This document shows, piece by piece, positions 1 through 49,258 of a stretch of 64,000 bases of DNA. The notes below the pieces were generated by a model. That model saw only the letters and a program-made list of their open reading frames with translations. It was not told the DNA's origin and did no database searches. Position 1 is the stretch's first letter, and every line of letters begins with the position of its first letter. A program made the position numbers and the translations under genes. This stretch comes from a virus, in IMG/VR virus record IMGVR_UViG_3300008266_000016, positions 44,790 to 108,789 of that record, one strand, 5' to 3'.

Positions 1-188
1 ATCCAGCAATTGATCACCAATACGACATAATTTTGCCCAGTCTAGACAAAATCAATCAGCGCACCATTGTTGAAGCTCGCAGAAATCGAGCAGATCGTAT
101 CAAACGTGAAACTGGTGAAGTGATTGATCAAAAGAAGATCCCCAACACAGATCTTGTGTTTAGAATCACCTGCTGGGAACACATACCC

Positions 189-794
189 ATGGCACCCAAA
201 AAAGTTACCAAAGCCGCTGCCAAGAAAAAGAAACTGGAAGACATACTTGATTTGGATGATGTGTCAGAAGATCCGCTGGCAGATTTAATAGATGAACCTG
301 TGCTAGACCCCACACATGTGCGTGTGAATTTTCCCCCGTTTTTTCACTACAGACTTGACGAGCAAAAGGTACCGTTTTTGGTGGGCAAGAGTCATTGGCG
401 TGGCGATTTGGCCACAGGAGAGTTTTCAAAGGATCACGGCAACATGACCAAGAAGCTGGCCATGATGTTTATGAAACTGTGTGAACGCTATGCCACTCGT
501 TCCAACTGGCGTGGCTACACCTACAACGAGGAAATGCGTGGACAAGCTCTACTTCAACTTAGTCAAATTGGTTTACAATTTGACGAATCTAAATCGCAAA
601 ACCCCTTTGCTTACTATACCGCTGCTATCACTAATAGCTTTACACGGATTCTTAACATTGAAAAGAAAAATCAAAATATCAGAGATGACATCCTGGAGAT
701 GAACGGCTTGAACCCATCGTGGACTAGACAGAACTCCGGCAAAGCTGGCATGGCTGCCATGTCCGGACCGGTTGTATCTAGTCTGGATCAGTAG
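189..794 (+). CDS. gp55: Late-transcription sigma factor (T4 gp55 family)
   Basis: Predicted late sigma factor of 201 residues that redirects host RNA polymerase to T4-type late promoters. The C-terminal half carries the sigma-like block with RSNWRGYTYNEEMRGQ, QIGLQFDESKSQNPFAYY and ITNSFTRILNIEKKNQN, which I recognise from gp55 proteins of environmental T4-like phages. The N-terminus is Lys-rich (APKKVTKAAAKKKK). I chose ATG 189 because homologous proteins begin with such a Lys/Ala-rich stretch. The frame is nevertheless open back to the window edge with no stop, and TTG 33 is another possible start. The stop lies 12 bp before the gp47-like gene. Late octamers in front of most structural genes in the window fit its role. 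Confidence 0.88.
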   Translation: MAPKKVTKAAAKKKKLEDILDLDDVSEDPLADLIDEPVLDPTHVRVNFPPFFHYRLDEQKVPFLVGKSHWRGDLATGEFSKDHGNMTKKLAMMFMKLCERYATRSNWRGYTYNEEMRGQALLQLSQIGLQFDESKSQNPFAYYTAAITNSFTRILNIEKKNQNIRDDILEMNGLNPSWTRQNSGKAGMAAMSGPVVSSLDQ

Positions 795-800
795 TATACT
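772..800 (+). promoter_or_regulatory. Possible sigma70-type promoter before the gp47-like gene
   Basis: TTGTAT (772-777) and TATACT (795-800) are separated by 17 bp and lie just upstream of ATG 807. The -10 is good, but the -35 matches the consensus at only three of six positions and there is no extended -10. Weak candidate. Confidence 0.3.
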
Positions 801-806
801 AGCAGG

Positions 807-1823
807 ATGACTAATCTATTCCGCAAAGCCGCAATCTTCACTGACATACATTTTGGACTCAAAAGCAATTCAACTCTGCACAATGAAGATTGTTTGGCCT
901 TTGTAAAATGGGCCACTGCTAAGGCCAAAGAGGAAGGGTGCGAAACTGCCATGTTTCTGGGTGACTGGCACAACAATCGAGCCAGCCTAAATATTGTTAC
1001 CCTAAACTATAGCCTTCGATCATTAGAGCACCTAAATGCTAATTTTGACCGTGTGTATTTTATACCTGGGAATCACGATCTTTATTATCGCGACAAGCGT
1101 GATATTCAGAGCGTGGAGTGGGCACGTCATCTCCCCAATGTGGAAATATGTAACGATTGGTTTAGTAGCGGTGACGTCGTTATTGCTCCTTGGCTTTGCG
1201 GCGATGACCATAAACGTATTCCTAAACTAACTGGCAAGTACATGTTTGGACACTTTGAACTGCCCGGCTACTTGATGAATGCCATGGTAGAGATGCCAGA
1301 CCATGGCGAAGTGCGCAGAGAAGACTTTGAGAATTTTGAACATGTATTCACCGGACACTTCCACAAGCGACAGACTAAAAAGAATATTACCTACATCGGT
1401 AATGCGTTCCCTCATAATTATGCAGATGCTGGTGACGACGAACGAGGACTTACTATATTGGAGTGGGGAGCAGCGCCTGTTTTTCATGCTTGGCCTGCTC
1501 AACCGACGTATAGAGTATACGGACTCGCCAACCTTATTGACAACGCTCCGGCTCTTCTTAAGCCCAAAATGCATGTGCGTGTTGGACTAGACATTGAGAT
1601 TTCATATGAAGAAGCCAACTTCATCAAAGAAACGTTTGTGAAAGACTACGACCTACGTGAGATGTCGCTTATTCCAAACAAAAACTCAGATGTAGACACA
1701 GATATGGCGCCAGGCGAGATTAAATTTGAGTCAGTGGATCAAATTGTCACAGACCAACTCACTAACATTGAATCAGAATTCTACGACAACAAGTTACTGT
1801 TAAAGATTTATCAAAACTTATGA
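807..1823 (+). CDS. gp47: Recombination endonuclease subunit (T4 gp47, SbcD/Mre11-like)
   Basis: Metallophosphoesterase subunit of the T4 gp46/gp47 (SbcCD, Mre11-Rad50-like) nuclease that resects DNA ends for recombination-dependent replication. In order, the five metal-binding motifs are visible: FTDIHFG near residue 13, LGDWHNN near 51, GNHD near 88, a GHFE segment near 146, and GHFHKR near 188. The length of 338 residues is normal for the family. ATG 807 follows an AGCAGG stretch. The gene end overlaps the gp46-like gene by 4 bp (ATGA), a standard coupling for this two-subunit complex. Confidence 0.95.
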   Translation: MTNLFRKAAIFTDIHFGLKSNSTLHNEDCLAFVKWATAKAKEEGCETAMFLGDWHNNRASLNIVTLNYSLRSLEHLNANFDRVYFIPGNHDLYYRDKRDIQSVEWARHLPNVEICNDWFSSGDVVIAPWLCGDDHKRIPKLTGKYMFGHFELPGYLMNAMVEMPDHGEVRREDFENFEHVFTGHFHKRQTKKNITYIGNAFPHNYADAGDDERGLTILEWGAAPVFHAWPAQPTYRVYGLANLIDNAPALLKPKMHVRVGLDIEISYEEANFIKETFVKDYDLREMSLIPNKNSDVDTDMAPGEIKFESVDQIVTDQLTNIESEFYDNKLLLKIYQNL

Positions 1824-3901
1824 TACAAATACGAAATCTCACTGTTAAAAACTTCATGAGTGTAGGCGCAGCCACACAGGCCATTGACTTTGACCGCAAT
1901 GATCTTACACTGGTGCTGGGTGAAAACTTAGACTTGGGTGGCGATGGATCGAGAAACGGCACAGGTAAGACCACAATCATCAATGCACTAAGTTATGCAT
2001 TATATGGCCAAGCACTGTCAAACATCCGCAAAGACAATCTAGTAAACAAAACCAATGCCAAACACATGTTGGTCAGCTTAGACTTTCATATCAACGGCAC
2101 AGACTACAAAATTGAACGTGGGCGCAAACCCAACGTACTCAAGTTCTATGTAAACAACGAACACAAGGCCGCAGAGGATGAGGCACAGGGAGATTCAAGA
2201 GAGACACAAGACGCCATAGAGCGTATTATTGGCATGAGCCATGACATGTTCAAACATGTGCTGGCGCTGAACACCTACACAGAACCGTTTCTAAGTTTGA
2301 AGGCCAATGACCAGCGCACAATCATTGAGCAGTTGTTAGGTATTACCTTGTTGAGTGAACGTGCGGACCGCATCAAAGAACTCAACCGACAAACCAAAGA
2401 TGCTATCCAGTCTGAAGAGTTTAGAATTCGTGCTGTGCAAGAAGCCAACAAACGCATCGAAGAACAGATTGAGAGTCTAAAGCGTAGGCAAGTGCTTTGG
2501 CAAAAGAAGTACGACAGTGACGTGGCTTATCTAGTTGGTCAGTATGACGATCTAGCAAAGATTGATATTGAACTAGAACTGCTGGCTCACAAAGATCTAG
2601 CTGTGTGGTCTGCAAGAAAACAACAACAAGATGCATATACTGCTCTTGTTGGTCGACAAACTGCTTGGAAACAAAAACAACACAAAGACATTGGTGAGCT
2701 AGAATCAACCTACAACAAACTCAGTCATATCGACATCTTGGCAGAACTTCAAGCACACACAGATTTGGCTGCTTACATTCAAAAAGCCAAAGACATTACA
2801 GACTTAGAAAAATACATTGCTCGATGTGTAGCAGACGAGGCCAAAGAACAAAAGGTCATCAACAAACTCAAAGCCGAAATTGAAGAATTAAAAAATCACA
2901 AGTGCTATGCTTGCGGGCAAGACTTCCATGATACCAATCACGAAACAGTATTGGCAACAAAAGAAAAGGCCTTGCAAGAGGCAGCACTACAAGCATTGTC
3001 TATCAATACTCAGTGGATGGAAAATACAGATGCGTTAACCGCATTGGGCGAGTTGGGTGCCAAACCCACAACACACTACCAAACAGAAACAGAAGCTATT
3101 CGACATTCTAGTGAGTTGGAAAACATTCAACACAAGATTGATGCCAAACGTGCAGAAACAGATCCCTATGCTGAACAGTTAGCAGAACACACACCTGTAG
3201 AAGTTGGCACACAACCTGTCACACATTATGATACCGAAACACAGGCAATCGATCATCGCAGTCGCATGAACACCCTGCTGACACAGATCAATGGCAAAGC
3301 ACTAGAGACCGATCCGTATACAGAACAAATTACCGAAATGCAACAACAGGCCCTACAGGTTGTGAGTTACGATCACTTAAACGAACTTACTAGAGTGCAA
3401 GACCATCAGGACTTCTTGCTCAAACTTTTGACCTCAAAAGACTCGTTTGTGCGTAAGAAGATTATTGAACAGAACTTGAGCTATTTGAATCAACGTCTCA
3501 CACACTACTTGGATAGAATTGGCTTACCACACACAGTGAAGTTCATGAACGACTTGACAGTGAGCATTGAAGAACTGGGTCGTGAACTGGATTTTGACAA
3601 CTTGAGTCGTGGCGAACGCAATCGATTGATCTTAAGCATGAGCTGGGCATTCCGTGATGTTTGGGAAAGTTTGTACTCGCCCATCAACTTGTTGTTTATT
3701 GACGAGATGATTGACAACGGGTTGGACACACAAGGTGTGGAAAATGCACTAGGCCTGTTGAAGAAGATGAGTCGCGAACGCCACAAGTCAATCTGGCTGG
3801 TTAGTCATAGAGATGAACTTACTAGCAGAGTTGAAAACATTCTCAAAGTGATCAAAGAGAATGGCTTTACCAGCTACAACACAGATATAGAAGTGGCATG
3901 A
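1820..3901 (+). CDS. gp46: Recombination endonuclease ATPase subunit (T4 gp46, SbcC/Rad50-like)
   Basis: SMC-like ATPase partner of gp47. It has a Walker A motif GSRNGTGKTT at residues 43-52 and a long central coiled coil interrupted by a zinc hook CYAC near residue 362. An ABC signature LSRGE lies near 594, and Walker B LLFIDEMIDNGLD near 625. At 693 residues it is longer than T4 gp46 (about 560), with the extra length in the coiled coil. The start overlaps gp47 by ATGA, and the stop in turn overlaps the next gene by ATGA, so the radical-SAM cassette is translationally coupled to the recombination genes. Confidence 0.95.
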   Translation: MIQIRNLTVKNFMSVGAATQAIDFDRNDLTLVLGENLDLGGDGSRNGTGKTTIINALSYALYGQALSNIRKDNLVNKTNAKHMLVSLDFHINGTDYKIERGRKPNVLKFYVNNEHKAAEDEAQGDSRETQDAIERIIGMSHDMFKHVLALNTYTEPFLSLKANDQRTIIEQLLGITLLSERADRIKELNRQTKDAIQSEEFRIRAVQEANKRIEEQIESLKRRQVLWQKKYDSDVAYLVGQYDDLAKIDIELELLAHKDLAVWSARKQQQDAYTALVGRQTAWKQKQHKDIGELESTYNKLSHIDILAELQAHTDLAAYIQKAKDITDLEKYIARCVADEAKEQKVINKLKAEIEELKNHKCYACGQDFHDTNHETVLATKEKALQEAALQALSINTQWMENTDALTALGELGAKPTTHYQTETEAIRHSSELENIQHKIDAKRAETDPYAEQLAEHTPVEVGTQPVTHYDTETQAIDHRSRMNTLLTQINGKALETDPYTEQITEMQQQALQVVSYDHLNELTRVQDHQDFLLKLLTSKDSFVRKKIIEQNLSYLNQRLTHYLDRIGLPHTVKFMNDLTVSIEELGRELDFDNLSRGERNRLILSMSWAFRDVWESLYSPINLLFIDEMIDNGLDTQGVENALGLLKKMSRERHKSIWLVSHRDELTSRVENILKVIKENGFTSYNTDIEVA

Positions 3902-5379
3902 CTGATGTTTTGATTTTAAGTATACCACGTTTGAGTGCCACTCGGCCTCAAAGTGCCTGTGGCATACTCAAATCAATTTGCAATCGTGCGGGCGTTACTT
4001 CAAAAGTTTTTGATATTAATTTGGACTTTTATCAAAATTTTAAATCTTCTAATCCGTCAACTGCCAATGCCATTGATCAATATTGGATACAATGGAACAA
4101 AAATCTGTTGCCTGAGGAGAAAACAACTTACTCTAGTTGGTTGCAAGCATGGGTTGAAAAATTAATGGCTTTTGATTGCAAGATCATTGCAGTAAGTGTA
4201 TTCAGTTGGGAAAGTCAACGATTTTGTCTTGACTTTTTTCCATTGTTGCGTAAAAATTTTACAGGCACAATCATTGTAGGCGGACAAGGTCTTATCAATG
4301 AACAAAACGGTAGCTTTAGTACCAAGATGCATTTTGCACACAAGTTAAAAAATCAAGGACTAATTGATCATTGGATTGCTGGAGAAGCTGAAAACAGTTT
4401 TTACAATTTTTTAACTGGTAGCAATGTACCTGGATTAGACAGTGATGTGTTGGTCAATGATGTTGATCTTGATACTAACAACATCGCAGATTATAGTGAC
4501 TTTGCAATAGAACAATATGTAACTGCCTACCCCGGCGGGGTATTGCCAATTGAAAGCAGTCGTGGATGTGTTAGAAGCTGTGCGTTTTGTGACATCCCCA
4601 CACATGCTGGAGGATATAGATACAAAAACGGAAAGGTACTAGCTAATGAAATGATTGGCTATTACCAACAGTATGGTGTGCGTAACTTTTATTTTAACGA
4701 TGCGTTGATGAACGGCAGCGTCAAAGATTTTAAACTATTTTTGAACTGCATCATTGAGTTTTATCAACAAAACAATTTACCTGACAGATTCTTTACATTC
4801 AGTGGTTATTGGATTGTGCGAAGTGAAACTCAATTCAAAGAGCACAATTTTGAACTGCTAAGTCGTGCCGGAGGAGAAATGTTTGAAACTGGAGTTGAGA
4901 CTGGTAGCGAACGTTTGCGAAACATCATGAACAAGGGATTTTCAAACGCAGATCTTGAGTTTAACATACAGCAGTTCAGCAAGTACAAAATGAAATTCTT
5001 CTTGTTGTTGCTGGTAGGGTTTCCAAATGAAACACAAACCGACTTTGAAGAGACCAAGAACTTGCTACGACGCTGGCAGAAATATGTTGCACTAGGAACT
5101 ATTATTGGATGCAACTTAGGCACAGGATTGACAGTAGAACAAGGAACACCTATGTTTGATAATCCTGCAAAATTTAACATTGTTCCAATCAAGGGCGACA
5201 CCGCCAAAGGCATCAATTGGATTTGTACCACAACACCTGAACTTGACTATGCAGAACGTGTGCGTCGACGCATTGAACTGCACAAGTTGGCCGAAGATCT
5301 GGGATATACTATCTGGAAAGGTGATGATCACTTGAGTATTATCAAAGATCGATATCTTACGGAGTTGGCCAATGTCTGA
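3898..5379 (+). CDS. Cobalamin-binding-type radical SAM protein
   Basis: Radical-SAM enzyme of 493 residues. The first ~190 residues look like a B12-binding Rossmann domain (IIAVSVFSWES, then TIIVGGQGLI), although the classical DxHxxG cobalamin ligand motif is not evident. The radical-SAM core starts at ESSRGCVRSCAFCDIP with the 4Fe-4S cysteines C224, C228 and C231 (CxxxCxxC), followed by a GVETGSERLR strand typical of the barrel. The reaction and substrate cannot be read from sequence; methyl transfer or a carbon-skeleton rearrangement would be usual for this architecture. It is coupled to gp46 by ATGA overlap and overlaps the next gene by 8 bp. It is not a T4 core gene and was probably acquired. 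Confidence 0.88.
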   Translation: MTDVLILSIPRLSATRPQSACGILKSICNRAGVTSKVFDINLDFYQNFKSSNPSTANAIDQYWIQWNKNLLPEEKTTYSSWLQAWVEKLMAFDCKIIAVSVFSWESQRFCLDFFPLLRKNFTGTIIVGGQGLINEQNGSFSTKMHFAHKLKNQGLIDHWIAGEAENSFYNFLTGSNVPGLDSDVLVNDVDLDTNNIADYSDFAIEQYVTAYPGGVLPIESSRGCVRSCAFCDIPTHAGGYRYKNGKVLANEMIGYYQQYGVRNFYFNDALMNGSVKDFKLFLNCIIEFYQQNNLPDRFFTFSGYWIVRSETQFKEHNFELLSRAGGEMFETGVETGSERLRNIMNKGFSNADLEFNIQQFSKYKMKFFLLLLVGFPNETQTDFEETKNLLRRWQKYVALGTIIGCNLGTGLTVEQGTPMFDNPAKFNIVPIKGDTAKGINWICTTTPELDYAERVRRRIELHKLAEDLGYTIWKGDDHLSIIKDRYLTELANV

Positions 5380-5866
5380 ATTTTTGTTTGAGTTTGATTA
5401 CGATGATTATTTTGGTATCCCTACAGTCAAAATTTTTATTGATCAACAATGCTTGTATCAAGACACAGTGAAAAAACAAATTGTTGTGAACACAGAGTTA
5501 GTGCCAGGTACTCACACATTGACTATAGAACACTTTGGTAAGCATGCCTGGAAACATCAGAATGCCGAACATGATCGTCATATTGAATTAAAATCTATTG
5601 TGGTCGACGGAGTAGATTTAGATCATCATGAACATTGCATGCTAACGCATCAAGGACGTTGGTACCCAGATTACAGTTTGGAGTGCATTACGCCATGTCA
5701 TTGGTTGGGCAACAACGGTACATGGATTTTGAATTTTGATGCGCCAGTATTGAATTGGATTATTAAAACAATCAATCCTGCAGGCGTGAGTCCAGAACAA
5801 ACACTGGATCGCAGTGGCAATGACATACTCAAAGACACTTTGGACTTTTTTAAAATAAATGTTTGA
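5372..5866 (+). CDS. Unrecognised beta-rich protein between two radical SAM genes
   Basis: A 164-residue protein with no motif I can name. It has alternating hydrophobic strands (EFLFEFDYDDYF, PTVKIFIDQQ, HTLTIEHFGKH, IELKSIVVDGVDL, GTWILNFDAP) and many His, Asp and aromatic residues. This pattern is compatible with a beta-sandwich such as a carbohydrate-binding module, which is inference only. There is no signal peptide or membrane segment. It overlaps the flanking radical-SAM genes by 8 bp on each side, so it is probably a substrate, carrier or partner of those enzymes. Confidence 0.75.
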   Translation: MSEFLFEFDYDDYFGIPTVKIFIDQQCLYQDTVKKQIVVNTELVPGTHTLTIEHFGKHAWKHQNAEHDRHIELKSIVVDGVDLDHHEHCMLTHQGRWYPDYSLECITPCHWLGNNGTWILNFDAPVLNWIIKTINPAGVSPEQTLDRSGNDILKDTLDFFKINV

Positions 5867-6947
5867 TTATAAAACTATTGACGAGTATCAGATAGAGATC
5901 ACCAGCTATTGTAATGCTGCCTGTCCCCAGTGTCCTCGCAACCTCAACGGACATGGTATCAATCCTTACATGCCGTTAACACACTTATCACGTGAAGTAA
6001 TTGACCGTGCATTCTCTGAAGAATTGTGCAGTAGATTACGTCAAGTATTCTTTTGCGGCAGTTATGGCGATCCCATCATGCATCCAGACTTTTTAGACAT
6101 ACTACGTGACTTTAGAAAGAAAGCTCCTACACTTTGGTTATACTTCCATACCAATGGCGGAGTACACGATCCTGATTACTGGGCAGAAGTTTCTAGTATC
6201 ATGAACGGCTACGGACAAATTGACTTTGGTATTGACGGACTAGAAGATACTTTACATTTGTATAGAAAAAATGTAAAATACAACAAAGTTATTGAAAACG
6301 CCGCTGCGTTTATAAATGCTGGAGGACGAGCACAATGGAACTATATTGTATTCAAACACAACGAGCACCAAGTTGAGCAGGCCAAACAACTGGCCAGCAG
6401 TATGAAATTTTTTAACATACTAATTCGAAACACTGGTAGATTTTTGAATCACACCACCCTGGAAGAGATGCCTGTGTGGCCAGTGGCCAAAAGTGACTAT
6501 GTACTTGAACCACCTAGTGATGCACAGTACAAGAATCGCAGTATGACATTTTTACCTGAGTTAAAAAAGCAACAGAACTACTTTGCTACTACTACTATCA
6601 AATGTGATGCCTTGCAAGGACGCAAAGTAGCTATCAACGCCGAAGGTGTTGTATTACCATGCAACTTTTTCAATCACAATTTGTATGATGCAAGATTTTA
6701 TGATGGATCAATGCCAGGAGCAAATGCATTAAGTCAGCCCGGTGGTCGCAATCAAGTACGAGACTTTTTGTTGTGTTACGGATTAGATAATCTCAACATT
6801 CATAACAATAGCCTCGAAGGTGTTTTTGAAAATCCCATGTGGAGTGATTTAGTTGAATCGTTTACTCGTGATCGATTGTTTGAATGTGCTATGACATGCG
6901 GTGAAAAATTTACAAAAGTTTGGGATCAAGGAGGAAGCAAAAGATGA
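5859..6947 (+). CDS. Radical SAM protein with C-terminal cysteine cluster
   Basis: Radical-SAM enzyme of 362 residues. The 4Fe-4S motif lies near the N-terminus: ITSYCNAACPQCPRN with C18, C22 and C25. Further barrel segments FFCGSYGDPIMHP and FHTNGG follow. Additional cysteines in the last third (KCDALQ, GVVLPCNFF, CYGLDN, MTCGEK) resemble the auxiliary-cluster (SPASM-like) region of peptide- or sugar-modifying radical-SAM enzymes; that assignment is inference. There is no B12 domain, unlike the enzyme two genes upstream. It overlaps the upstream gene by 8 bp and the SDR gene by 4 bp (ATGA), within one translational unit. Confidence 0.88.
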   Translation: MFDYKTIDEYQIEITSYCNAACPQCPRNLNGHGINPYMPLTHLSREVIDRAFSEELCSRLRQVFFCGSYGDPIMHPDFLDILRDFRKKAPTLWLYFHTNGGVHDPDYWAEVSSIMNGYGQIDFGIDGLEDTLHLYRKNVKYNKVIENAAAFINAGGRAQWNYIVFKHNEHQVEQAKQLASSMKFFNILIRNTGRFLNHTTLEEMPVWPVAKSDYVLEPPSDAQYKNRSMTFLPELKKQQNYFATTTIKCDALQGRKVAINAEGVVLPCNFFNHNLYDARFYDGSMPGANALSQPGGRNQVRDFLLCYGLDNLNIHNNSLEGVFENPMWSDLVESFTRDRLFECAMTCGEKFTKVWDQGGSKR

Positions 6948-7534
6948 AAATGTTAGTTACAGGCGGTAACCGAGGACTGGGGCAACACCTAGTGGATGTG
7001 TTTGGTGCTGACAGTGTCAGCAGATCCACAAACTTGGATATCACTGATGACCAAGCAGTCAAATTGATTGCTCAACAAAGTTTGAATTATGATGTGTTTG
7101 TAAACAATGCATTTGATGGGCCACCACAAGAAGCCTGGGCCAACTTTGCACAAACAAACTTGTACATGGCAGTATACGACAAGTGGAAAAACGCTGGCAA
7201 AAGTGGGCACATCTTTAATATTGGATCAGTGGGCGAGCATCATATTGTTGCTGCTGAGCCTAGATTTGAAACGTACCGCGTGGCCAAGGCGGCACTGGCA
7301 CATGCCAGCAGGCAGGGCACCCAGTCATTCAAACAAAATCTGGTGCAGTTCAGAACCACGCTAATCACACCTGATCGCTTGGACACAGAACTAAGTCGTG
7401 GACGGCCCACCTGGACAGGAAACGGCATTAATTTAAAAGATATTAGCAATTTTATAACATACGCTATCTCTGTTGGTCCAAACACAGTGATAGAAGAGGC
7501 AACTTTTTACGTAAACTTTGATCATAAATCATAA
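6944..7534 (+). CDS. Short-chain dehydrogenase/reductase (SDR)
   Basis: NAD(P)-dependent SDR-family oxidoreductase of 196 residues. The dinucleotide-binding motif TGGNRGLG spans residues 6-13, an NNA segment is at 54-56, the catalytic serine is in IGS (S95), and the catalytic pair is YRVAK (Y111, K115). ATG 6944 is chosen because a perfect AAGGAGG sits about 9 bp upstream and the start overlaps the previous stop by ATGA; TTG 6920 would have no such site. It is a little shorter than the usual 240-260 residues, with a reduced C-terminus. It is the last gene of the radical-SAM cassette, so it probably acts on the same substrate. Confidence 0.85.
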   Translation: MKMLVTGGNRGLGQHLVDVFGADSVSRSTNLDITDDQAVKLIAQQSLNYDVFVNNAFDGPPQEAWANFAQTNLYMAVYDKWKNAGKSGHIFNIGSVGEHHIVAAEPRFETYRVAKAALAHASRQGTQSFKQNLVQFRTTLITPDRLDTELSRGRPTWTGNGINLKDISNFITYAISVGPNTVIEEATFYVNFDHKS

Positions 7535-7567
7535 CTATAACACGAAAGGCAAACCCACTAAACGCAC

Positions 7568-7996
7568 ATGACATGGCTACATCAAGACACCCCAGTTGAG
7601 ACTCTGCCCGAAGAATGTGTAGGTTTTGTTTATCTAATCACAAATAATCTATCTGGACGCAAGTACATAGGCAAAAAATTAGCAAAATTTAGCAAAACAA
7701 CATACAAAATAGTCAAACAAAAGAACGGCACAAAGAAGCGGAAGAAGATACGATCAAAGATTGATTCAGATTGGAGAGAGTACTACGGGTCAAGCCCAGA
7801 ATTAACCGCAGACGTAATCACTTTAGGCACCGAAAACTTTACCAGAGAAATACTTTACTATTGTAAATCAAAATCAGAATGTTCGTACATTGAAGCAAGA
7901 GAACAGTTCACAAGAAAAGTATTGGAATCAACAGATTATTATAACGGCCATATTCAAGTTCGTGTGCATGGCTCACACATCGTAGGAAAATTATGA
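7568..7996 (+). CDS. GIY-YIG-like endonuclease
   Basis: Small nuclease of 142 residues. A GFVYL strand (residues 19-23) and KYIGKK (32-37) form the GIY-YIG core, followed by a basic stretch KKRKKIRSK and SDWREYYGSS. ENFTREILYYCKSKSECSY, with Y-x-E-A-R just after it, gives the downstream conserved helix. Similar free-standing enzymes occur in many T4-like phages as putative homing endonucleases. It lies directly upstream of a zinc-ribbon gene and a group I ribozyme-like region, so it could mobilise that element, which is inference. It overlaps the next gene by 4 bp. Confidence 0.8.
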   Translation: MTWLHQDTPVETLPEECVGFVYLITNNLSGRKYIGKKLAKFSKTTYKIVKQKNGTKKRKKIRSKIDSDWREYYGSSPELTADVITLGTENFTREILYYCKSKSECSYIEAREQFTRKVLESTDYYNGHIQVRVHGSHIVGKL

Positions 7997-8259
7997 CTAA
8001 ACTTGACTACAGTAAAACTAACAAAAGCGACACTGGCTTTTTGAATGATCCGTATTGGACTAATCCAAAGACAGGATTTGATAAAGCATGGCACGAACAA
8101 CGAAAAAAACTCAGGCAACAATTAGGCATACACGAAAATCATGAATGGGAAATAGTCAACAAACCTACCGGACCGCATGCAGGCAAAATAGTTTGCAACA
8201 CTTGCGGTGGAAAATTTGTTAATTGGATTCCAAAAGGTTATATTTTACCTAACACTTAA
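7993..8259 (+). CDS. Small zinc-ribbon-like protein
   Basis: An 88-residue hypothetical protein. The N-terminal half is polar and basic (DKAWHEQRKKLRQQLG). The C-terminal half reads HEWEIVNK, PHAGKIVCNTCGGKFVNWIPKG, with one CxxC knuckle and two His that could bind zinc. I have seen similar short HEW...CxxC...WIPKG proteins in environmental phages but know no function. It is coupled to the GIY-YIG gene by a 4-bp overlap. The stop lies at the very start of the ribozyme-like RNA, so the natural 3' end of this gene could be in a downstream exon. Confidence 0.65.
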   Translation: MTKLDYSKTNKSDTGFLNDPYWTNPKTGFDKAWHEQRKKLRQQLGIHENHEWEIVNKPTGPHAGKIVCNTCGGKFVNWIPKGYILPNT

Positions 8260-8483
8260 GGTTGGCGGGCCAGTTTGTAATACCGCTGTGGAAAAACCGG
8301 GGAATAACCGGACACGTGACATATTGAGGCACTCCCGTCAGTAAATCTGACTATCCTGAAAAATTGGAAGTGAGTCTGAGGCTAGAACAATAGGGCCGAC
8401 GCATTGATATAGTATGAATGTTAGCATACGAGAACACCGGCTATAAAAATCTAAACACTAGGAACGAGGTTTAGAGCACGTAG
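8260..8483 (+). ncRNA. Group I intron/ribozyme core, boundaries uncertain
   Basis: No reading frame is seen, but the conserved elements of a phage (IA2-type) group I ribozyme occur in the right order. P4 is CGGGGA (8298-8303) with TCCCG (8333-8337). A small P6, GTCAG/CTGAC, lies at 8337-8351. The R element GACTATCC is at 8349-8356 and is followed by GGAAGT. P8 is formed by GTC/GGC with GCC/GAC (8374-8382 and 8395-8400). The S element GATATAGT is at 8406-8413, giving P7 as ACTAT/ATAGT. A P9-type hairpin TCTAAAC/GTTTAGA (8450-8475) has a GGAACGA-containing loop. R, S and the terminal hairpin closely resemble the T4 td intron as I remember it. The 3' splice G is probably 8480 or 8483. The 5' splice site, P1 and P3 are not resolved. 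Confidence 0.75.
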
Positions 8484-8717
8484 AAATATGTGTATCGTGG
8501 TAGGAAGGAAAAGCACAGAGTCCTTTAGCATACGGTGTATAATAAATTACCTACTTCCAATGTCTTGGCTAGTGATACTCACATGAAGACAACAGCGGAA
8601 CCGCGCAAAACGGTTCCGTCTGACTAGATCTATCTACATGAATACTTAATCGCTTCGCTCTTGAAAATCAATCAATTAACGAGCGCAAGCGAAGTTAATA
8701 GACTTGCGTAGCAAGTC
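8484..8717. other. Gene-free region rich in hairpins between converging genes
   Basis: No convincing frame or RNA gene is visible. Three hairpins stand out: CGGAACCG/CGGTTCCG at 8596-8618 with a 7-base loop; ACTT plus CGCTTCGCTC at 8644-8660 pairing with GAGCGcAAGCG plus AAGT at 8681-8695; and AGACTTGC/GCAAGTCT at 8700-8718 with a 3-base loop. None has a T-run, but they lie between converging transcription units and could end transcription from both sides. The part just after 8483 may be a 3' exon of the ribozyme-like element. Confidence 0.5.
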
Positions 8718-9254
8718 TTATAATAAGTTTAACTCTTTGAGTTTGTTGACATAATGTGATTGTCCTTGAGCAACTTGTTGTTGCCAATCATTGTGTGCGT
8801 GTTGGTTGGCTTGATCGCTGATGTATTTCCAACACACAAACTCAACTCCATATTTCTCGCATGCTTTGGCAATGGCATAGGCTTCCATGTCTACAACATC
8901 TGCTGGTATTTGTAGTATGGGATTCATCACAAAGTTGTCACCAGTACTGCAAGTTAAGCCAGTAGAGTTGCCAATGTGTGTGCTAGTTTCAAAAGGTGTT
9001 TGTCCTGGGGTACACCCTAATGCTTCACAAGTCATGTCTCTTTGCACAAACTGAGTGCATTGATAGAATCCTGGTGCGACTGTTATACCACCAGCTGTGC
9101 CAAAGTTAATGATACGCCGGGGACGATACTTTGTGATAACTTCACTGGCAGTGATGGCAGCGTTAACCTTGCCCACACCAGTGTAAAACAAGTTCATCAT
9201 GTGGCTGAGATCTGGTGCTTCTGCTCGAATAGCTATTAAAATAATATCATTCAT
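8718..9254 (-). CDS. mtnN: MTA/SAH nucleosidase (phosphorylase superfamily)
   Basis: Predicted 5'-methylthioadenosine/S-adenosylhomocysteine nucleosidase. Family enzymes also cleave 5'-deoxyadenosine, the by-product of radical-SAM reactions. Family marks are YTGVGKVNAA, NFGTAGGI, the CSTGDNFV loop, the nucleoside-binding VDMEAYAIAKAC with the Glu that contacts ribose, and KYISDQAN with the catalytic Asp. At 178 residues it is shorter than bacterial MtnN (about 230), with a trimmed middle. ATG 9254 and ATG 9260 are both possible; each overlaps the end of the apt-like gene. It is the last gene of the minus-strand operon. Confidence 0.87.
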   Translation of the reverse strand: MNDIILIAIRAEAPDLSHMMNLFYTGVGKVNAAITASEVITKYRPRRIINFGTAGGITVAPGFYQCTQFVQRDMTCEALGCTPGQTPFETSTHIGNSTGLTCSTGDNFVMNPILQIPADVVDMEAYAIAKACEKYGVEFVCWKYISDQANQHAHNDWQQQVAQGQSHYVNKLKELNLL

Positions 9255-9771
9255 CAACATTGACCATTCCTTCCCACATAATATTGTGCCGAGTCAATGC
9301 TGTCCCTCCAGGCAAGTTCTGCAAGTTTATAATCACAGCAGCAGAAATTTTAGTGTCAATCCAATGACTGCGAATTAGATTTGCTGTGGCCATTATAGTG
9401 CCTCCAGTGGCTAGCAAGTCATCCACAATCAATGGATGTGCGCCTACTGGAGCGTGTGGGTGCATTTCAATGGTATCAGTGCTGTATTCAGTTTGATAGC
9501 TGTGTTGTATTGTGGGGCCGGGCAATTTGCCACGTTTACGTACTAGGATTAGTGGAAGTCCTAATTGTCTTGCTACAGGTGCCGCAAACACAAAGCCACG
9601 GCTTTCCACAGCCACAAGACTGGAAGCATTATACCAATGTGCTTGATGCTTTAACCATCCACAGCAGTAATCAAATGCTTCTGGATTGGCAAGAATGCCA
9701 GTTACGTCAAAAAAGTTAATACCTGGTTTGGGCCAATCAGGTACTACAGGTACATGATCGAGGATGTTCAT
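9247..9771 (-). CDS. apt: Adenine phosphoribosyltransferase
   Basis: Converts adenine and PRPP to AMP. The 174 residues match the usual APRT length and order: PKPGINFFDVTGIL near residue 15, VAVESRGFVFAAPVA near 54, VRKRGKLPG near 77, and the PRPP-binding loop LIVDDLLATGGT at 114-125. It is followed with overlap by the MTA/SAH nucleosidase, whose product is adenine, so the two genes make a two-step salvage route. The ATG overlaps the upstream stop by 4 bp. Confidence 0.93.
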   Translation of the reverse strand: MNILDHVPVVPDWPKPGINFFDVTGILANPEAFDYCCGWLKHQAHWYNASSLVAVESRGFVFAAPVARQLGLPLILVRKRGKLPGPTIQHSYQTEYSTDTIEMHPHAPVGAHPLIVDDLLATGGTIMATANLIRSHWIDTKISAAVIINLQNLPGGTALTRHNIMWEGMVNVDE

Positions 9772-10103
9772 ACAAATGTGTCTGGCCAGTCTCTAAATAA
9801 AGCATGTTGAATATTGCCTGACACAAATTGATTGAATGACTTGTGTTTGACTTCAAGTTCACCCTCAAGCGGTGCTACTCGTTTGAAAGCCGAGTCCATT
9901 TGACCCATGTCTCGGAACTCCATGATAATCATCCATTCAGGCATGTCCGCAATTGAACGGAATCCCATCTTGCATCTTGTGATACGATAGTCTACCATCT
10001 TGTCTTCTGATATCAAATGATCAAAGAAACTTTTCATTCCGTTGACCCAGTCTAAGTCTGAGATGTCGCCTTCTTTGTCTGCCCAAATTGTATATAAATC
10101 CAT
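9768..10103 (-). CDS. Conserved small protein, DUF6614-like
   Basis: A 111-residue protein with the pattern MDLYTIWADKEG, then DWVNGMKSFFDHL, MVDYRITRCKMGF, EWMIIMEFRDMGQMDSAF and ALFRDWPD. This matches my recollection of the DUF6614 family, whose members look like small dimeric alpha/beta-barrel proteins; function unknown. The family label is from memory. It sits in the middle of the minus-strand operon, starting 2 bp after the upstream stop and overlapping apt by 4 bp, so it is probably co-translated with the salvage enzymes. Confidence 0.7.
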   Translation of the reverse strand: MDLYTIWADKEGDISDLDWVNGMKSFFDHLISEDKMVDYRITRCKMGFRSIADMPEWMIIMEFRDMGQMDSAFKRVAPLEGELEVKHKSFNQFVSGNIQHALFRDWPDTFV

Positions 10104-10105
10104 AG

Positions 10106-10540
10106 TTACTCCAGTGGTCCTAGTATTTCAAATCCGTCCATGTTGGATTTGTATAGGTGTGCTTGCTCAAGATACAAGTATTGGAATCCTCGTTCCTTGT
10201 AGATAGCACACTCTGTTTTCATTGTTTCAATTCCCAACCGTAGTTTAGGATTGTTGTAGTTCCATGCAAATTGATCGCACAGTGCGTTATGATCATCATA
10301 GCGTCGGATCAAACTGAATGCAACCAATCGATTTTGATCGTAATATCCTATTACATCTGTCATTGGGTCTGTGTAACGACAGTCAAATATAGGCATCACA
10401 CTTGCAAAATGTTTGTATTTGCAATAGTCTCTGTAGATAGAGTTTAGCTGTTTGATGTTGGGCTCACGCAAATACTCCCACTTTACATTTGGTGTGTAGT
10501 TGGTCTGGCTGAGATCGATTCTGGCAAACTGATAGCTCAT
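10106..10540 (-). CDS. Possible acyltransferase-fold (GNAT-like) protein
   Basis: A 144-residue protein. The core TDVIGYYDQNRLVAFSLIRRYDDHNALCDQFAWNY, followed by LRLGIETMKTECAIYKERGFQYLYLEQAH, has the strand-helix-strand order of GNAT and arginyl-transferase C-terminal domains. The classical acetyl-CoA motif (Q/RxxGxG/A) is weak (KLRLGIE). Function is unknown; an N-acyl or aminoacyl transferase is possible. The start overlaps the upstream gene by 4 bp and the stop is 2 bp before the DUF6614-like gene. Confidence 0.65.
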   Translation of the reverse strand: MSYQFARIDLSQTNYTPNVKWEYLREPNIKQLNSIYRDYCKYKHFASVMPIFDCRYTDPMTDVIGYYDQNRLVAFSLIRRYDDHNALCDQFAWNYNNPKLRLGIETMKTECAIYKERGFQYLYLEQAHLYKSNMDGFEILGPLE

Positions 10541-11037
10541 CTTGGATCCTTACGATGTTCAAACAGTCCCGCAAGATACTCTTCTGGCCAGTTGTGATAG
10601 AATCCCTTCTCAGCCATAAGTTTGGCTTTGTTGTTTAAGTCGCTGAGACTTTGCACTAGAGCTAGAGCATACTTGCCTTGATTCATACACACACCGTTCA
10701 CCATCTCAACGTCTGCGGGATGATCCTCTAGTGCAAGTAGATCGTTGCGTAACAAATGTTCCTTGTTGGCATTTTTCAAACTGTCACTGAACAATTCATA
10801 TGGCCATTCCACAGGATCGTAAGCATAGATAATAACTTCCTTATCGCCCATGCCCCATCGTGCTCGATTTTTAAGATCAAAGTAAGGATCTACGCCAACA
10901 TGTACATCGTAGCTTTTTTTCATGCGTGCTGAGCGTGCGTATGGACAAGGAGCCCAGCCTCCAAGAGCAGGATGTGGAACTTCTACAAAGTTCACAATCC
11001 AGTTTTCAATATCTTGTTTAACTGTATCTAAGTCCAT
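10537..11037 (-). CDS. Conserved hypothetical phage protein
   Basis: A 166-residue protein with no assignable domain. The opening IENWIVNFVEVPHPALGGWAPCPYARSAR is distinctive and, as I recall, recurs in environmental T4-like phages without a known role. The rest alternates charged helices (LLRNDLLALEDHPADVE) and aromatics. ATG 11037 shares its A with the TAA stop of the upstream gp51-like frame (TAATG), so the genes are coupled. A cytoplasmic protein is likely, with no signal or membrane segment. Confidence 0.68.
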   Translation of the reverse strand: MDLDTVKQDIENWIVNFVEVPHPALGGWAPCPYARSARMKKSYDVHVGVDPYFDLKNRARWGMGDKEVIIYAYDPVEWPYELFSDSLKNANKEHLLRNDLLALEDHPADVEMVNGVCMNQGKYALALVQSLSDLNNKAKLMAEKGFYHNWPEEYLAGLFEHRKDPR

Positions 11038-15631: not shown

Positions 15632-17392
15632 ATGGCAGAACCCAAACAACAAGGCTGGCGCAAATATTTCAAAGTTGCAGACACATCCGGAGTGATGAGT
15701 CCAATTTCTGGACAAAATCAATTTGGATTGTCCAACTACGGCAAAAACGACGGCTCTGATTCGATGATAAATGATTTTACTTTTCGAAACTATGCCAGCA
15801 GATTGCCCGAAGTTTATTCAGGCCATCCCAACAGAGTAGAGCGTTACAATCAGTATGAGAACATGGACATGGACTCAGAGATCAATGCCTGCTTGGATAT
15901 TATTGCTGAGTTTTCCACACAGATCAACGAGTCAAACGCCACCCCGTTTGACATTCAATACAACGAAACACCCACAGACCACGAAGTTGACATCATTAAA
16001 AAACAACTGCAACAGTGGGTCAAGCTGAACAAACTAGATCAGCGCATATTTAAACTGTTCCGTAACACCATCAAGTATGGTGATCAGGTGTTTGTGCGTG
16101 ATCCAGAAACATTTGAAATGTACTGGGTTGACATGACCAAAGTTGCTAGAGTTATTGTGAACGAATCTGAAGGCAAACGTCCTGAACAATATGTGATCCG
16201 TGACATCAACCCCAACTTCCAAAACATGACTGTGGCAGCAAAGACCACCACAGACTACATGACCAATCCTGTGACAGGCAGTGTATCTGGCGCTGCCAAC
16301 TACACCATGCCCAATGGTGGGTCAGGTGGCGGCGTGGGCAACAGTCGCTTTATGACTGCCATGAACGAAACTTGTTTAGATGCCAAGCATGTGATACACA
16401 TGAGCTTGAACGAAGGCCTAGACGTATTTTGGCCGTTTGGACGCAGTGTACTAGAACAGATTTACAAAGTATTCAAGCAAAAAGAACTGCTGGAAGATGC
16501 AATCTTGATTTATCGTGTGAGCCGTGCTCCTGAACGACGAATCTTTAAAATTGACGTAGGCAACATGCCATCACACTTGGCCATGGCGTTTGTGGAACGT
16601 GTTAAAAACGAAATGCATCAACGTAGAATCCCCACGGTATCAGGTGGCGGAGCCAACATGATGGATAGCAGTTACAATCCACTGTCAATCAACGAAGACT
16701 ACTTTTTCCCACAAGGACAAGACGGCCGCGGAAGCTCAGTTGAGACATTGCCAGGCGGTCAAAACCTAGGCGAAATTGACGACTTAAAGTACTTTAACAA
16801 CAAAATGGCCCGTGGTCTGCGTGTGCCATCGAGCTATTTGCCCACTGGTCCTGACGATTCAGACCGTGCTTTTTCAGACGGAAAAGTAGGCACAGCTCTT
16901 ATACAAGAGTACAGATTCAACCAGTATTGTGAGCGTTTGCAAGGGCATATTTCACAAAAATTAGACGACGAATTCAAGATGTTTTTGAAATGGCGTGGGT
17001 TTAACATAGACTCTAGCCTGTTTAATTTGAAGTTTTCACCGCCTCAAAACTTTGCAAGTTATCGTCAAAGCGAACTAGACAACACAAGAATTCAAGCATT
17101 CACAGCCATGGAGCAACTGCCTTACATGTCAAAACGTTTTATGCTACAGCGTTTCTTGGGATTGAGTGAAGACGAAATCAAAGAAAACGAAGAACTCTGG
17201 CGAGAAGAACGTGATAGCCCTGAAATGCAAAATTCAGGCGGTGCTGACTTACGTTCTGTGGGTATCACGCCTGGCGGCATGGAAACTGATATTACCACTG
17301 GCGAAGAAATTGGGCAAATGCAACAGCCTGGCGCAGGCGAAATGGTTGGCCCTGGCGCGGCTGCACCTGGGGCTGCACCTGGCGGAGTATAA
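15632..17392 (+). CDS. gp20: Portal vertex protein (T4 gp20)
   Basis: Head-tail portal of 586 residues, the dodecameric channel for DNA packaging. Recognised by FRNYASRLPEVYSGHPNRVE, then MDSEINACLDIIAEFSTQ, by RAPERRIFKIDVGNMP, and by KYFNNKMARGLRVPSSYLP, which are strongly conserved in T4-type portals. The C-terminus is a Gly/Ala/Pro-rich tail. Length is close to T4 gp20 (524). It starts 16 bp after the tape measure and is followed 8 bp later by a small head gene. Confidence 0.95.
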   Translation: MAEPKQQGWRKYFKVADTSGVMSPISGQNQFGLSNYGKNDGSDSMINDFTFRNYASRLPEVYSGHPNRVERYNQYENMDMDSEINACLDIIAEFSTQINESNATPFDIQYNETPTDHEVDIIKKQLQQWVKLNKLDQRIFKLFRNTIKYGDQVFVRDPETFEMYWVDMTKVARVIVNESEGKRPEQYVIRDINPNFQNMTVAAKTTTDYMTNPVTGSVSGAANYTMPNGGSGGGVGNSRFMTAMNETCLDAKHVIHMSLNEGLDVFWPFGRSVLEQIYKVFKQKELLEDAILIYRVSRAPERRIFKIDVGNMPSHLAMAFVERVKNEMHQRRIPTVSGGGANMMDSSYNPLSINEDYFFPQGQDGRGSSVETLPGGQNLGEIDDLKYFNNKMARGLRVPSSYLPTGPDDSDRAFSDGKVGTALIQEYRFNQYCERLQGHISQKLDDEFKMFLKWRGFNIDSSLFNLKFSPPQNFASYRQSELDNTRIQAFTAMEQLPYMSKRFMLQRFLGLSEDEIKENEELWREERDSPEMQNSGGADLRSVGITPGGMETDITTGEEIGQMQQPGAGEMVGPGAAAPGAAPGGV

Positions 17393-23099: not shown

Positions 23100-23187
23100 C
23101 TTGTCAACACAATACGGTGTTTTATGCGGTTTAACCCGCCGCGTAGCGACTAGAACTCGCATCGGACTTCTGTAAGGAGAAACAAAA

Positions 23188-23973
23188 ATGGGACGTCCTC
23201 TTAAAATACAAAAAACAAGCACTGGTTCAGGCAACGGCGGCGCAGCCGTTAGCGTTGACATTGGCTTTCCAAATTTTGGATCATTAACTGCCCCTGTGAC
23301 CAACACAGGCGACACACTCAGTGCTACTGAATATCTTGGCGTGGTGGGTGGTGCAGCCCCCACTGATACGCCTTCGGCAACCAATCCTAGAATTGACGTA
23401 ATTGTGAACATTGCAGCCCCTGACGGCAGCGGTATTGGCGTTGCTAATGGATATATTATCCGTCAAAAAGGTTCACACAAATACCTAGTTGGTGATGCCA
23501 ATGGCGTTAACGACGGCAGTTTTGTAGTTGGGCAAGCATATCAAATTAGTGTTGTTGGAACAACAACTAACTGGACCGCAGCCGGTGCTCCTAGTAACTT
23601 TGGATTAGGCACAATTTTCACAGCAACTTCTGTTGGTGGATCTGGCAACGGCGCAGCATTCTCAGTGGGTGTTTGTGTACTGGCCGATGACACTACTCCA
23701 GCAGCTGGATTGATGGCTATCACATTTACAGTTACTGATTCTACTGCTACTACTATCTCCAAATTGACCAACAAGTTCTTGTTGGATTGGACTGGCGGCG
23801 CAAACTATGACCCTGCCAGCGTTGTGGCTGACAAGCGTTATGCAACCAACTTCTTTACAGACGAAGGTACAGTTATCAAATCAGGTACCACTGGTGCAGC
23901 AAACTCAGGCACAGTACAAAGCGGACAACAAAATCTGCTTGACTTGGCCATTGTTGACAACGTTACTTCTTAA
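23188..23973 (+). CDS. Virion structural protein, Gly/Thr-rich
   Basis: A 261-residue structural protein with low-complexity beta-rich sequence (GSGNGGAAVSVDIG, SGIGVANGYIIRQKG, GSGNGAAFSVGV). It lacks the TGN-x-TGGN repeat of the fibres. The opening GRPLKIQKTSTGSGN and the KGSHKYLV and LDWTGGANYDPASV segments resemble decoration or fibre-associated proteins of environmental T4-like phages; the exact role is not known. A good SD and its own promoter and leader suggest high expression, so a head decoration protein is an alternative. Confidence 0.7.
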   Translation: MGRPLKIQKTSTGSGNGGAAVSVDIGFPNFGSLTAPVTNTGDTLSATEYLGVVGGAAPTDTPSATNPRIDVIVNIAAPDGSGIGVANGYIIRQKGSHKYLVGDANGVNDGSFVVGQAYQISVVGTTTNWTAAGAPSNFGLGTIFTATSVGGSGNGAAFSVGVCVLADDTTPAAGLMAITFTVTDSTATTISKLTNKFLLDWTGGANYDPASVVADKRYATNFFTDEGTVIKSGTTGAANSGTVQSGQQNLLDLAIVDNVTS

Positions 23974-48340: not shown

Positions 48341-49258
48341 ATGAAATTGAAATTTGATGAAAAAGTAGAATTTTACATTACCAATGTCTGCAACTACACC
48401 TGCGATAATTGCAACCGTTTTAACAATCATAAATTTTCAGGATGGCAACGCTGGAGCGATTACGAAGGCATCTATCAACAGTGGGCAAAACAAATTGAAC
48501 TACGTGCCATAACTATCTTAGGTGGCGAGCCCACACTAAATCCCACACTGTCAGAATGGGTAGTGGGCTTGAATGAAATATTCAATTGCGATGTAGAAAT
48601 ACTGACCAATGGCACTCGACTGAATCATGTCCCAGGACTGTATGAGGCAATGACCAGACCCCGACCGCCAGAAAGGCCAGTGAATCACATTGGAGTGAGT
48701 CTGCACAACATAGCAGACTTTGAAATGTTGCGTCAAAACATATTGGATTTTCTTGATACCGTTGTAGTAGAATTTGGTTTTAAATTAGACCTCCCCCCAC
48801 CACCAAATTGGCAAGGATGGGATTCATACTGGACTGTGGTTGATAAAAATGGTGTGATTGTTTGCATGCACCTAGCCAACAATTTCCAAACATCCGCTGT
48901 GCAGTTAAACAACACTGGCCGATTTATTGTTCATGACAGCGACCCTATACGCAGTCATCAACAGTGCGGATTTGTTAAATTTAAATGCTATCACTTTGTT
49001 CGCGGAAAAATATACAAATGCGGCCCCGCGGCGCTGTTTCCAGAATTTGATGAACAAAATCAATTTGACATTTCTGAATCAGATCGCCAGATCATGAACA
49101 GCTACCGACCACTGACCTTGGACAACTTTGAACTCTACAAAGATGATTGGGTGGAAAGTTTAAAGCACCCAATTCCACAATGTAAATTTTGTCCAGACAA
49201 AGGAATCAATAGAATTATTACCCCCACAGTCAAAGGCACTGCATCCAATGACACATAA
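48341..49258 (+). CDS. Radical SAM protein
   Basis: Third radical-SAM enzyme of the window, 305 residues. FYITNVCNYTCDNCNRF carries C17, C21 and C24 (CxxxCxxC). AITILGGEPTLNP (GGEPT at 61-65) is the SAM-binding strand, and VEILTNGTRL follows. C-terminal cysteines (QQCGFVKFKCYHF, KIYKCGPAAL, PQCKFCPDKG) suggest an auxiliary cluster. It is not closely similar to the two enzymes at 3898 and 5859. It overlaps the SGNH hydrolase gene by 11 bp, so the two are co-translated. Substrate unknown. Confidence 0.9.
   Translation: MKLKFDEKVEFYITNVCNYTCDNCNRFNNHKFSGWQRWSDYEGIYQQWAKQIELRAITILGGEPTLNPTLSEWVVGLNEIFNCDVEILTNGTRLNHVPGLYEAMTRPRPPERPVNHIGVSLHNIADFEMLRQNILDFLDTVVVEFGFKLDLPPPPNWQGWDSYWTVVDKNGVIVCMHLANNFQTSAVQLNNTGRFIVHDSDPIRSHQQCGFVKFKCYHFVRGKIYKCGPAALFPEFDEQNQFDISESDRQIMNSYRPLTLDNFELYKDDWVESLKHPIPQCKFCPDKGINRIITPTVKGTASNDT

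Follow-up and report, generated by a model that had tools for sequence, protein, structure and literature searches.

The nucleosidase-phosphoribosyltransferase locus

The DNA analysed here (the window, 64,000 nucleotides) comprises bases 44,790-108,789 of the 108,789-bp virus record IMGVR_UViG_3300008266_000016, and it is read as part of a T4-like phage genome from its open reading frames (ORFs) at about 33-3901 and the portal gene at 15632-17392. Its - strand contains two overlapping genes, one for a short nucleosidase of the type acting on 5'-methylthioadenosine (MTA) and S-adenosylhomocysteine (SAH), designated NUC, and one for an adenine phosphoribosyltransferase (APRT). They are the last two genes of a presumed operon in the order DUF6875-like gene, orf144, DUF6614 gene, APRT and NUC, with stop/start overlaps at three of the four junctions (Table 1).

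This run converges on a + strand cassette of radical S-adenosylmethionine (radical-SAM) genes, where gp46 is followed by rSAM1, an ORF of 164 residues, rSAM2, a short-chain dehydrogenase/reductase (SDR) gene, a gene for a segE-type GIY-YIG endonuclease and an ORF of 88 residues. The SDR and segE genes, the 88-residue ORF and a 458-bp gap with the terminator-like hairpin lie between rSAM1/rSAM2 and the NUC-APRT pair. A preliminary description of this DNA had placed the radical-SAM genes, the nucleosidase and APRT in one overlapping order; the overlap holds for NUC and APRT, but rSAM1 and rSAM2 are not part of the operon of the pair, being encoded on the other strand and running towards it.

Table 1. 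Features of the NUC-APRT locus and of the radical-SAM genes (window positions)
Feature	Position	Strand	Evidence
NUC, 180-residue MTA/SAH-type (PNP_UDP_1) nucleosidase	8718..9260	-	Pfam/NCBIfam, catalytic residues, AlphaFold2 model and Foldseek
APRT, adenine phosphoribosyltransferase	9247..9771	-	NF002636; 14-base overlap with NUC; phmmer against solved APRTs
DUF6614 gene, preceding APRT in the presumed operon	9768..10103	-	PF20319 1.4e-20; 4-base overlap with APRT
orf144, 144-residue ORF of the presumed operon	10106..10540	-	weak ATE_C match, below cut-off
166-residue ORF, DUF6875-like, first gene of the presumed operon	10537..11037	-	PF21780 0.0066, below cut-off; phrog_28122 8.1e-10
Terminator-like hairpin downstream of NUC	8596..8618	-	consensus scan only; 6 found against 3.5 expected in the region
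rSAM1, resembles B12-binding radical-SAM enzymes	3898..5379	+	PF04055 8.2e-12, CVRSCAFC
orf164, 164-residue ORF of the radical-SAM cassette	5372..5866	+	no family match
rSAM2, resembles SPASM-type maturases	5859..6947	+	PF04055 2.3e-11, CNAACPQC
SDR oxidoreductase, last gene of the radical-SAM cassette	6920..7534	+	PF00106 1.2e-6
segE-like GIY-YIG endonuclease	7568..7996	+	PF19835 1.4e-32; marker adjoining NUC in several phage contigs
rSAM3, 39 kb from NUC/APRT	48341..49258	+	PF04055 5.8e-9, CNYTCDNC

Identity of the two enzymes

NUC exceeded the cut-off of PF01048 (1.6e-19, 70.7 bits, cut-off 25.1), and its AlphaFold2 model (mean pLDDT 83.4) gave 50 listed Foldseek matches in the PDB, all of them MTA/SAH nucleosidases or futalosine hydrolases with probability 1.00. 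Residues E13, M124-E125 and D148 (numbering of alignment A1; one is added for the 180-residue ORF) align with E12, M173-E174 and D197 of Escherichia coli MtnN, and were invariant in 21 of 21 phage NUC sequences. E12 and D197 are echoed in the titles of mutants among the structure matches, and E174 is likewise a catalytic residue of MtnN. The MtnN-like nucleosidase of the preliminary description is thus confirmed by family, fold and catalytic residues, its scores lying below the curated MtnN cut-offs. The best NCBIfam model was NF004168 'nucleosidase' (5.7e-30, 104.5 bits, under the cut-off of 129). NUC, a short protein of the phosphorylase superfamily, has the MTA/SAH-nucleosidase fold and would be expected to hydrolyse MTA, SAH and 5'-deoxyadenosine.

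The second gene, likewise correctly named before, exceeded one APRT model (NF002636, 160 bits, cut-off 125) and remained under four others (TIGR01090, 149.3 against 185.85; NF002632; NF002633; NF002634). Comparison with solved APRTs by phmmer gave E-values down to 1.4e-37.

Coupling of NUC and APRT in phages

The association was counted over 112 phage loci spanning the interval from a gp26-like gene to segE/gp46, collapsed at 97% segE identity; the loci of this count and of the slot count described below include some contigs fetched more than once, which the clusters collapse. APRT was present in 12 of 26 NUC-positive and in 1 of 38 NUC-negative clusters (p=2.9e-5; 51/72 against 1/40 before collapsing), a count slightly in favour of APRT, as some NUC-positive loci came from an APRT-seeded scan and the NUC-negative set was portal-seeded.

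The trees of the two proteins were discordant at the starred branches. The APRT of L034-L039 joins that of L067, whereas the NUC nests with L016/L022/L026; similarly, the APRT of L064 joins L031, and its NUC the L286/L277/L047 group. Therefore one member of the pair was exchanged and the combination kept, the trees alone not saying which. Outside this locus, APRT, NUC and segE occur together on other phage contigs (Phage C48C1, L303-L307, L310, L311, L066), and in C48C1, L303 and L066 APRT-NUC directly follows ribonucleotide reductase (RNR) genes. Because APRT is tied to NUC, one member has been exchanged with the pair kept, and the pair recurs in other phage settings, the nucleosidase and APRT look like a selected combination, despite the NUC-positive clusters and records without APRT.

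A DUF6614 homologue was found in 33 of the 38 NUC-negative clusters; therefore the DUF6614 gene probably predates NUC/APRT at the locus. The DUF6875-like gene, orf144 and the DUF6614 gene (9768-11037, - strand), to which no function could be assigned, are kept in most of the relatives examined, with NUC/APRT added behind them.

Bacterial homologues

A scan of bacterial genomes with the single NUC protein found no relative, and the scan with alignment A1 gave 169 NUC loci, of which the best 80 were kept. These 80 belonged to marine alphaproteobacteria including SAR11, SAR86 and other gammaproteobacteria, Chloroflexi, Phycisphaerae and others. An APRT match lay within about 2.3 kb in at least 23 of them, a lower bound since the queries were phage APRTs, and two of these 23 (L172, L173) group with the phage proteins in the tree. 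Matches to Acinetobacter 'phages' (H2/H3) were rejected, the surroundings of H2 being host chromosome genes (ileS, argA).

In the SAR11 locus L220, apt and NUC are divergently oriented, and behind NUC lies a fusion of SAM decarboxylase and spermidine synthase (speD/speE), a source of MTA. In L228, apt is followed by the MTA phosphorylase gene mtnP (TIGR01694, over cut-off) and by NUC, on which a SPASM radical-SAM gene of the opposite strand converges; L193 and L214 have the same order. In the Chloroflexi locus L187, NUC follows a homocysteine S-methyltransferase gene, and in other loci its neighbours were unrelated, for example a dioxygenase (L191), an oxidoreductase (L237) or a LysR regulator (L174). 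Where the neighbours are informative, they speak for a general recycling of the by-products of SAM chemistry, and arrangements of the L228 type leave room for SAH or 5'-deoxyadenosine. These contexts do not bear out the statement, made earlier for the phage pair, that it serves radical-SAM chemistry rather than general methionine salvage, since the bacterial NUC stands beside apt, speD/speE, mtnP or homocysteine methyltransferase.

Proposed role of the pair

Taken together, NUC and APRT are probably a two-step bacterial-type module for recovering adenine from SAM by-products, with the radical-SAM genes as separate cargo. The module leading from NUC through adenine to AMP is itself well supported, and this part of the preliminary description, the adenine loop, is upheld by the identities of the enzymes and by the tie of APRT to NUC. 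NUC would hydrolyse the 5'-substituted adenosines arising from SAM chemistry (MTA and SAH, and also 5'-deoxyadenosine in view of the known promiscuity of the family), yielding adenine and a sugar, and APRT would join the adenine to phosphoribosyl pyrophosphate, so that it may flow into the AMP pool and feed nucleotide synthesis during infection. The removal of by-products may in addition protect SAM-dependent enzymes, both host and phage, against product inhibition, a presumed benefit to the phage. The pair would be cargo attached to the 3' end of a phage operon that is probably older (DUF6875-like gene, orf144, DUF6614 gene) and with which it is presumably transcribed, and the radical-SAM genes of the facing strand would be at most one source of substrate.

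Several observations weigh against this interpretation. NUC fell below the cut-off of every NCBIfam model listed (besides NF004168, TIGR01704, 55/73.8; NF004079, 77.5/169; NF005522, 62.8/161; TIGR01705, 60.6/152.2 bits), so that its substrate is not fixed by homology. Four positions which we take to line the 5'-pocket of E. coli MtnN, V102, F105, Y107 and P113, correspond to C77, L80, C82 and P88 in NUC (A1 numbering), a pocket compatible with either MTA or 5'-deoxyadenosine and of no help in choosing between them. No APRT was present in the slot in 14 of the 26 NUC-positive clusters, and no APRT match in the whole record of five NUC-positive records (G011, G026, G027, G032, G048). Since mtnP adjoins NUC in L193, L214 and L228, MTA is perhaps not the main substrate there. 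speD was found in 0 of 23 phage records, and metK in none of the four records of this phage searched; a weak local link of NUC to radical-SAM genes, treated below, also remains.

The route from polyamine synthesis through a phage speD was rejected for this lineage on the result just given. Among 25 records metK exceeded its curated cut-off in six (NUC-positive G048, G064, G075 and G059; NUC-negative G055 and G057), and among those of about 300 kb or more in 3 of 4 NUC-positive against 1 of 6 NUC-negative (p=0.19); a larger SAM-cycle set is possible in some metK-bearing relatives.

Radical-SAM genes and alternative explanations

The three radical-SAM proteins reported before are all present in the window, each over the Pfam PF04055 cut-off and with a CxxxCxxC motif, but they are not the whole complement, as the full record has eight PF04055 matches at E<=0.001, and rSAM3 is remote from the pair. 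Four of the eight are over the Pfam cut-off and five lie outside the window; four of these five (the four that were run, the fifth being cut by the record end) score above the threshold of the model NF033640 ('twitch domain-containing radical SAM protein'). G004, a 364-kb record with an identical NUC, has 16 matches.

One might speculate that, in a giant-phage lineage with over a dozen radical-SAM genes, some members carry a compact nucleosidase tuned by its small 5'-pocket to 5'-deoxyadenosine, together with an APRT banking the adenine, both acquired beside the radical-SAM cargo slot. We regard this as rather unlikely; if true, the two enzymes would amount to a housekeeping of radical enzymology encoded by the virus itself.

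The proposal of the preliminary description, that NUC and APRT mainly clear 5'-deoxyadenosine formed by the radical-SAM enzymes of the phage itself, draws on an enzymology established for bacterial enzymes: as described in the available text of the two sources, the E. coli enzyme Pfs/MtnN serves adenine salvage and detoxification by cleaving SAH, MTA and 5'-deoxyadenosine (PMC10986504), and 5'-deoxyadenosine inhibits radical-SAM enzymes (PMC8102628). The richness of the present record and of G004 speaks for it, as does the arrangement in L228, L193 and L214, where a SPASM radical-SAM gene adjoins NUC although mtnP is already present. As its test the proposal had named co-occurrence of the nucleosidase with radical-SAM genes in relatives, and genome-wide no excess was found. 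Records of at least 90 kb were compared, 13 with NUC and 18 without a PF01048 match, leaving out G000, G001, G003, G005 and G031 (copies of the window's own phage, that of G004, with identical NUC); every PF04055 match at E<=0.001 was counted, some of them lying below the Pfam cut-off, and fragmentary NUC-negative records may hide a NUC in the missing part. All 13 NUC-positive records have radical-SAM matches, but so do all 18 NUC-negative ones, at the same density (5.49 per 100 kb with NUC and 5.37 without, the medians being 5.48 and 5.79; p=0.86), and the four NUC-positive and six NUC-negative records of about 300 kb or more did not differ either (p=0.61). G106 and G115 have as many matches as any record (21 and 19) and no PF01048 match, whereas the complete Phage C48C1 (156 kb) and G072 (110 kb) have NUC with a single radical-SAM match. 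The cassette rSAM1-orf164-rSAM2-SDR (3898-7534) is likewise found both in NUC-bearing relatives (L144, L284, L292) and in others that lack NUC (L090, L111, L112); in L047 rSAM1 and orf164 are inverted within the cassette.

Locally, a radical-SAM gene occupies the slot between gp46 and segE in 19 of 24 NUC-positive and 15 of 29 NUC-negative clusters at 97% identity (p=0.048). When two NUC-negative clusters (L087; L132/L133), with the radical-SAM gene just upstream by coordinates, were resolved by hand, the latter became 17/31 (p=0.087). Clustering at 92% gave 15/20 against 14/28 (p=0.13); the resolved row at this level (p=0.148) was not used, both hand-resolved clusters already holding known states there. 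Matched pairs of nearest relatives gave 9 against 2 of 21 (p=0.065). Among occupied slots, counted by hand as those with a gap of more than 500 bp or a radical-SAM gene seen, the association was gone (19/20 against 17/20, p=0.60). No slot state was assigned to three NUC-negative loci (L076, L093, L098) and three NUC-positive clusters, and L123, whose record has a NUC elsewhere, was counted as NUC-negative in the slot. A cruder count in a fixed 2.5-kb window (23/26 against 10/23, p=0.0018; p=0.32 with 4 kb) was set aside, having been inflated by near copies and truncated windows. The interval is read as a cargo slot that usually holds a radical-SAM gene when filled, and NUC phages have it filled somewhat more often; a weak local link between NUC and radical-SAM genes may nevertheless be real.

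Since radical-SAM richness is common to relatives with and without the nucleosidase, the clean-up proposal fails at the genome level, and with equal densities and the pair present in C48C1 beside one radical-SAM match, we consider it unlikely that the two enzymes are dedicated to this purpose. It is a clean case of an appealing pathway story that did not pass a genome-level co-occurrence test.

About equally improbable, or slightly more so, is a salvage of purines in which NUC would cleave (deoxy)adenosine released when nucleic acids are degraded, and APRT with RNR would provide dATP for phage DNA. The position of APRT-NUC directly behind RNR genes in three contigs agrees with it, and a SurE-MTAP-apt path of deoxyribonucleotide recycling is proposed for Prochlorococcus in the available text of PMC11698098. 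The active site of NUC, however, is of the MtnN type, its bacterial relatives stand beside speD/speE, mtnP or homocysteine methyltransferase, and no RNR was noticed near the pair in the window, not every ORF of which was searched against a family library.

Host effectors that release adenine from ATP exist, and NUC has a short, weak match to a phosphorylase-type effector of PADLOC (4.6e-6 over 42 residues), yet a counter-defence role, with NUC or APRT reversing a host signal or replenishing adenylates once a host effector has cleaved ATP or NAD, is very improbable, as APRT occurs in the slot almost only with NUC and the bacterial neighbourhoods examined are metabolic.

Other features of the record

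The first 96 residues of rSAM3 resemble prokaryotic viperins (PADLOC pVip, 5.7e-12); its assignment as a viperin was rejected, NF038283 giving 41.7 bits against a cut-off of 180 over residues 8-96 only. Outside the window, record bases 771-8062 (L005) contain four NF033640 radical-SAM proteins interleaved with ORFs without a family, and an acyl-CoA-ligase-like ORF is found at 9746-10831.

A match to the freshwater-2 RNA (RF02980 of Rfam; 68.6 bits, gathering threshold 49.9) at window positions 23105-23190 of the + strand marks a candidate cis-regulatory RNA; no paper was found under this name. The T4-type late promoter TATAAATA had one match in the window against 1.58 expected, which is uninformative. 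The product of OQ984149.1 CDS0110 (L003:14455-14949), annotated as 'NAD synthetase', is a SegE GIY-YIG protein (PF19835, 1.1e-34), and PHROG 447 bears the same label.

Comparison with known systems

Among open-licence papers no report of a phage nucleosidase-APRT pair was found. Gene cassettes with radical-SAM genes in a variable region of pelagimyophages are already in print (available text of PMC7029224). The pair belongs with the auxiliary metabolic genes already known from phages for the SAM cycle and for purine salvage; its specific connection with radical-SAM enzymes is unproven and, at the genome level, unsupported.

Judged from alignment and model, NUC appears to share the fold, the catalytic residues and the expected reaction of E. 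coli MtnN/Pfs (EC 3.2.2.9). It is shorter, with 180 residues where MtnN has 232; the alignment shows a gap of some 22 residues around residue 25, followed by smaller ones. It also differs in the smaller residues of its 5'-pocket and in scoring below the curated cut-offs. Also related to it are short NF004168-like nucleosidases, mostly from uncultured marine bacteria, with 38-58% identity, a similar length and APRT near in the share of loci given above. In the most informative of these bacterial loci the gene adjoins speD/speE, mtnP or homocysteine methyltransferase, whereas the phage NUC is appended to a phage operon.

The Lake Baikal phage population VP_139, which in the available text of PMC7678222 has an MTA/SAH nucleosidase, MetK, radical-SAM proteins and RNR and is read as modulating the SAM cycle, resembles the present phage in the nucleosidase and the radical-SAM proteins. 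It differs in having this MetK, a methionine adenosyltransferase, and the likeness described here is one of gene content; the word 'adenine' is absent from the main text of that paper, so that APRT is not named for VP_139. Phage C48C1 (OQ984149, unclassified Kyanoviridae) has the same overlapping APRT-NUC pair followed by segE, but beside RNR, in another genome setting and with its single radical-SAM match. The overlapping nucleosidase-APRT pair is found in two or more distinct genome settings of phages and has been kept together despite the exchange of one member, and this persistence is good comparative evidence that phages exploit the recovery of adenine from SAM by-products.

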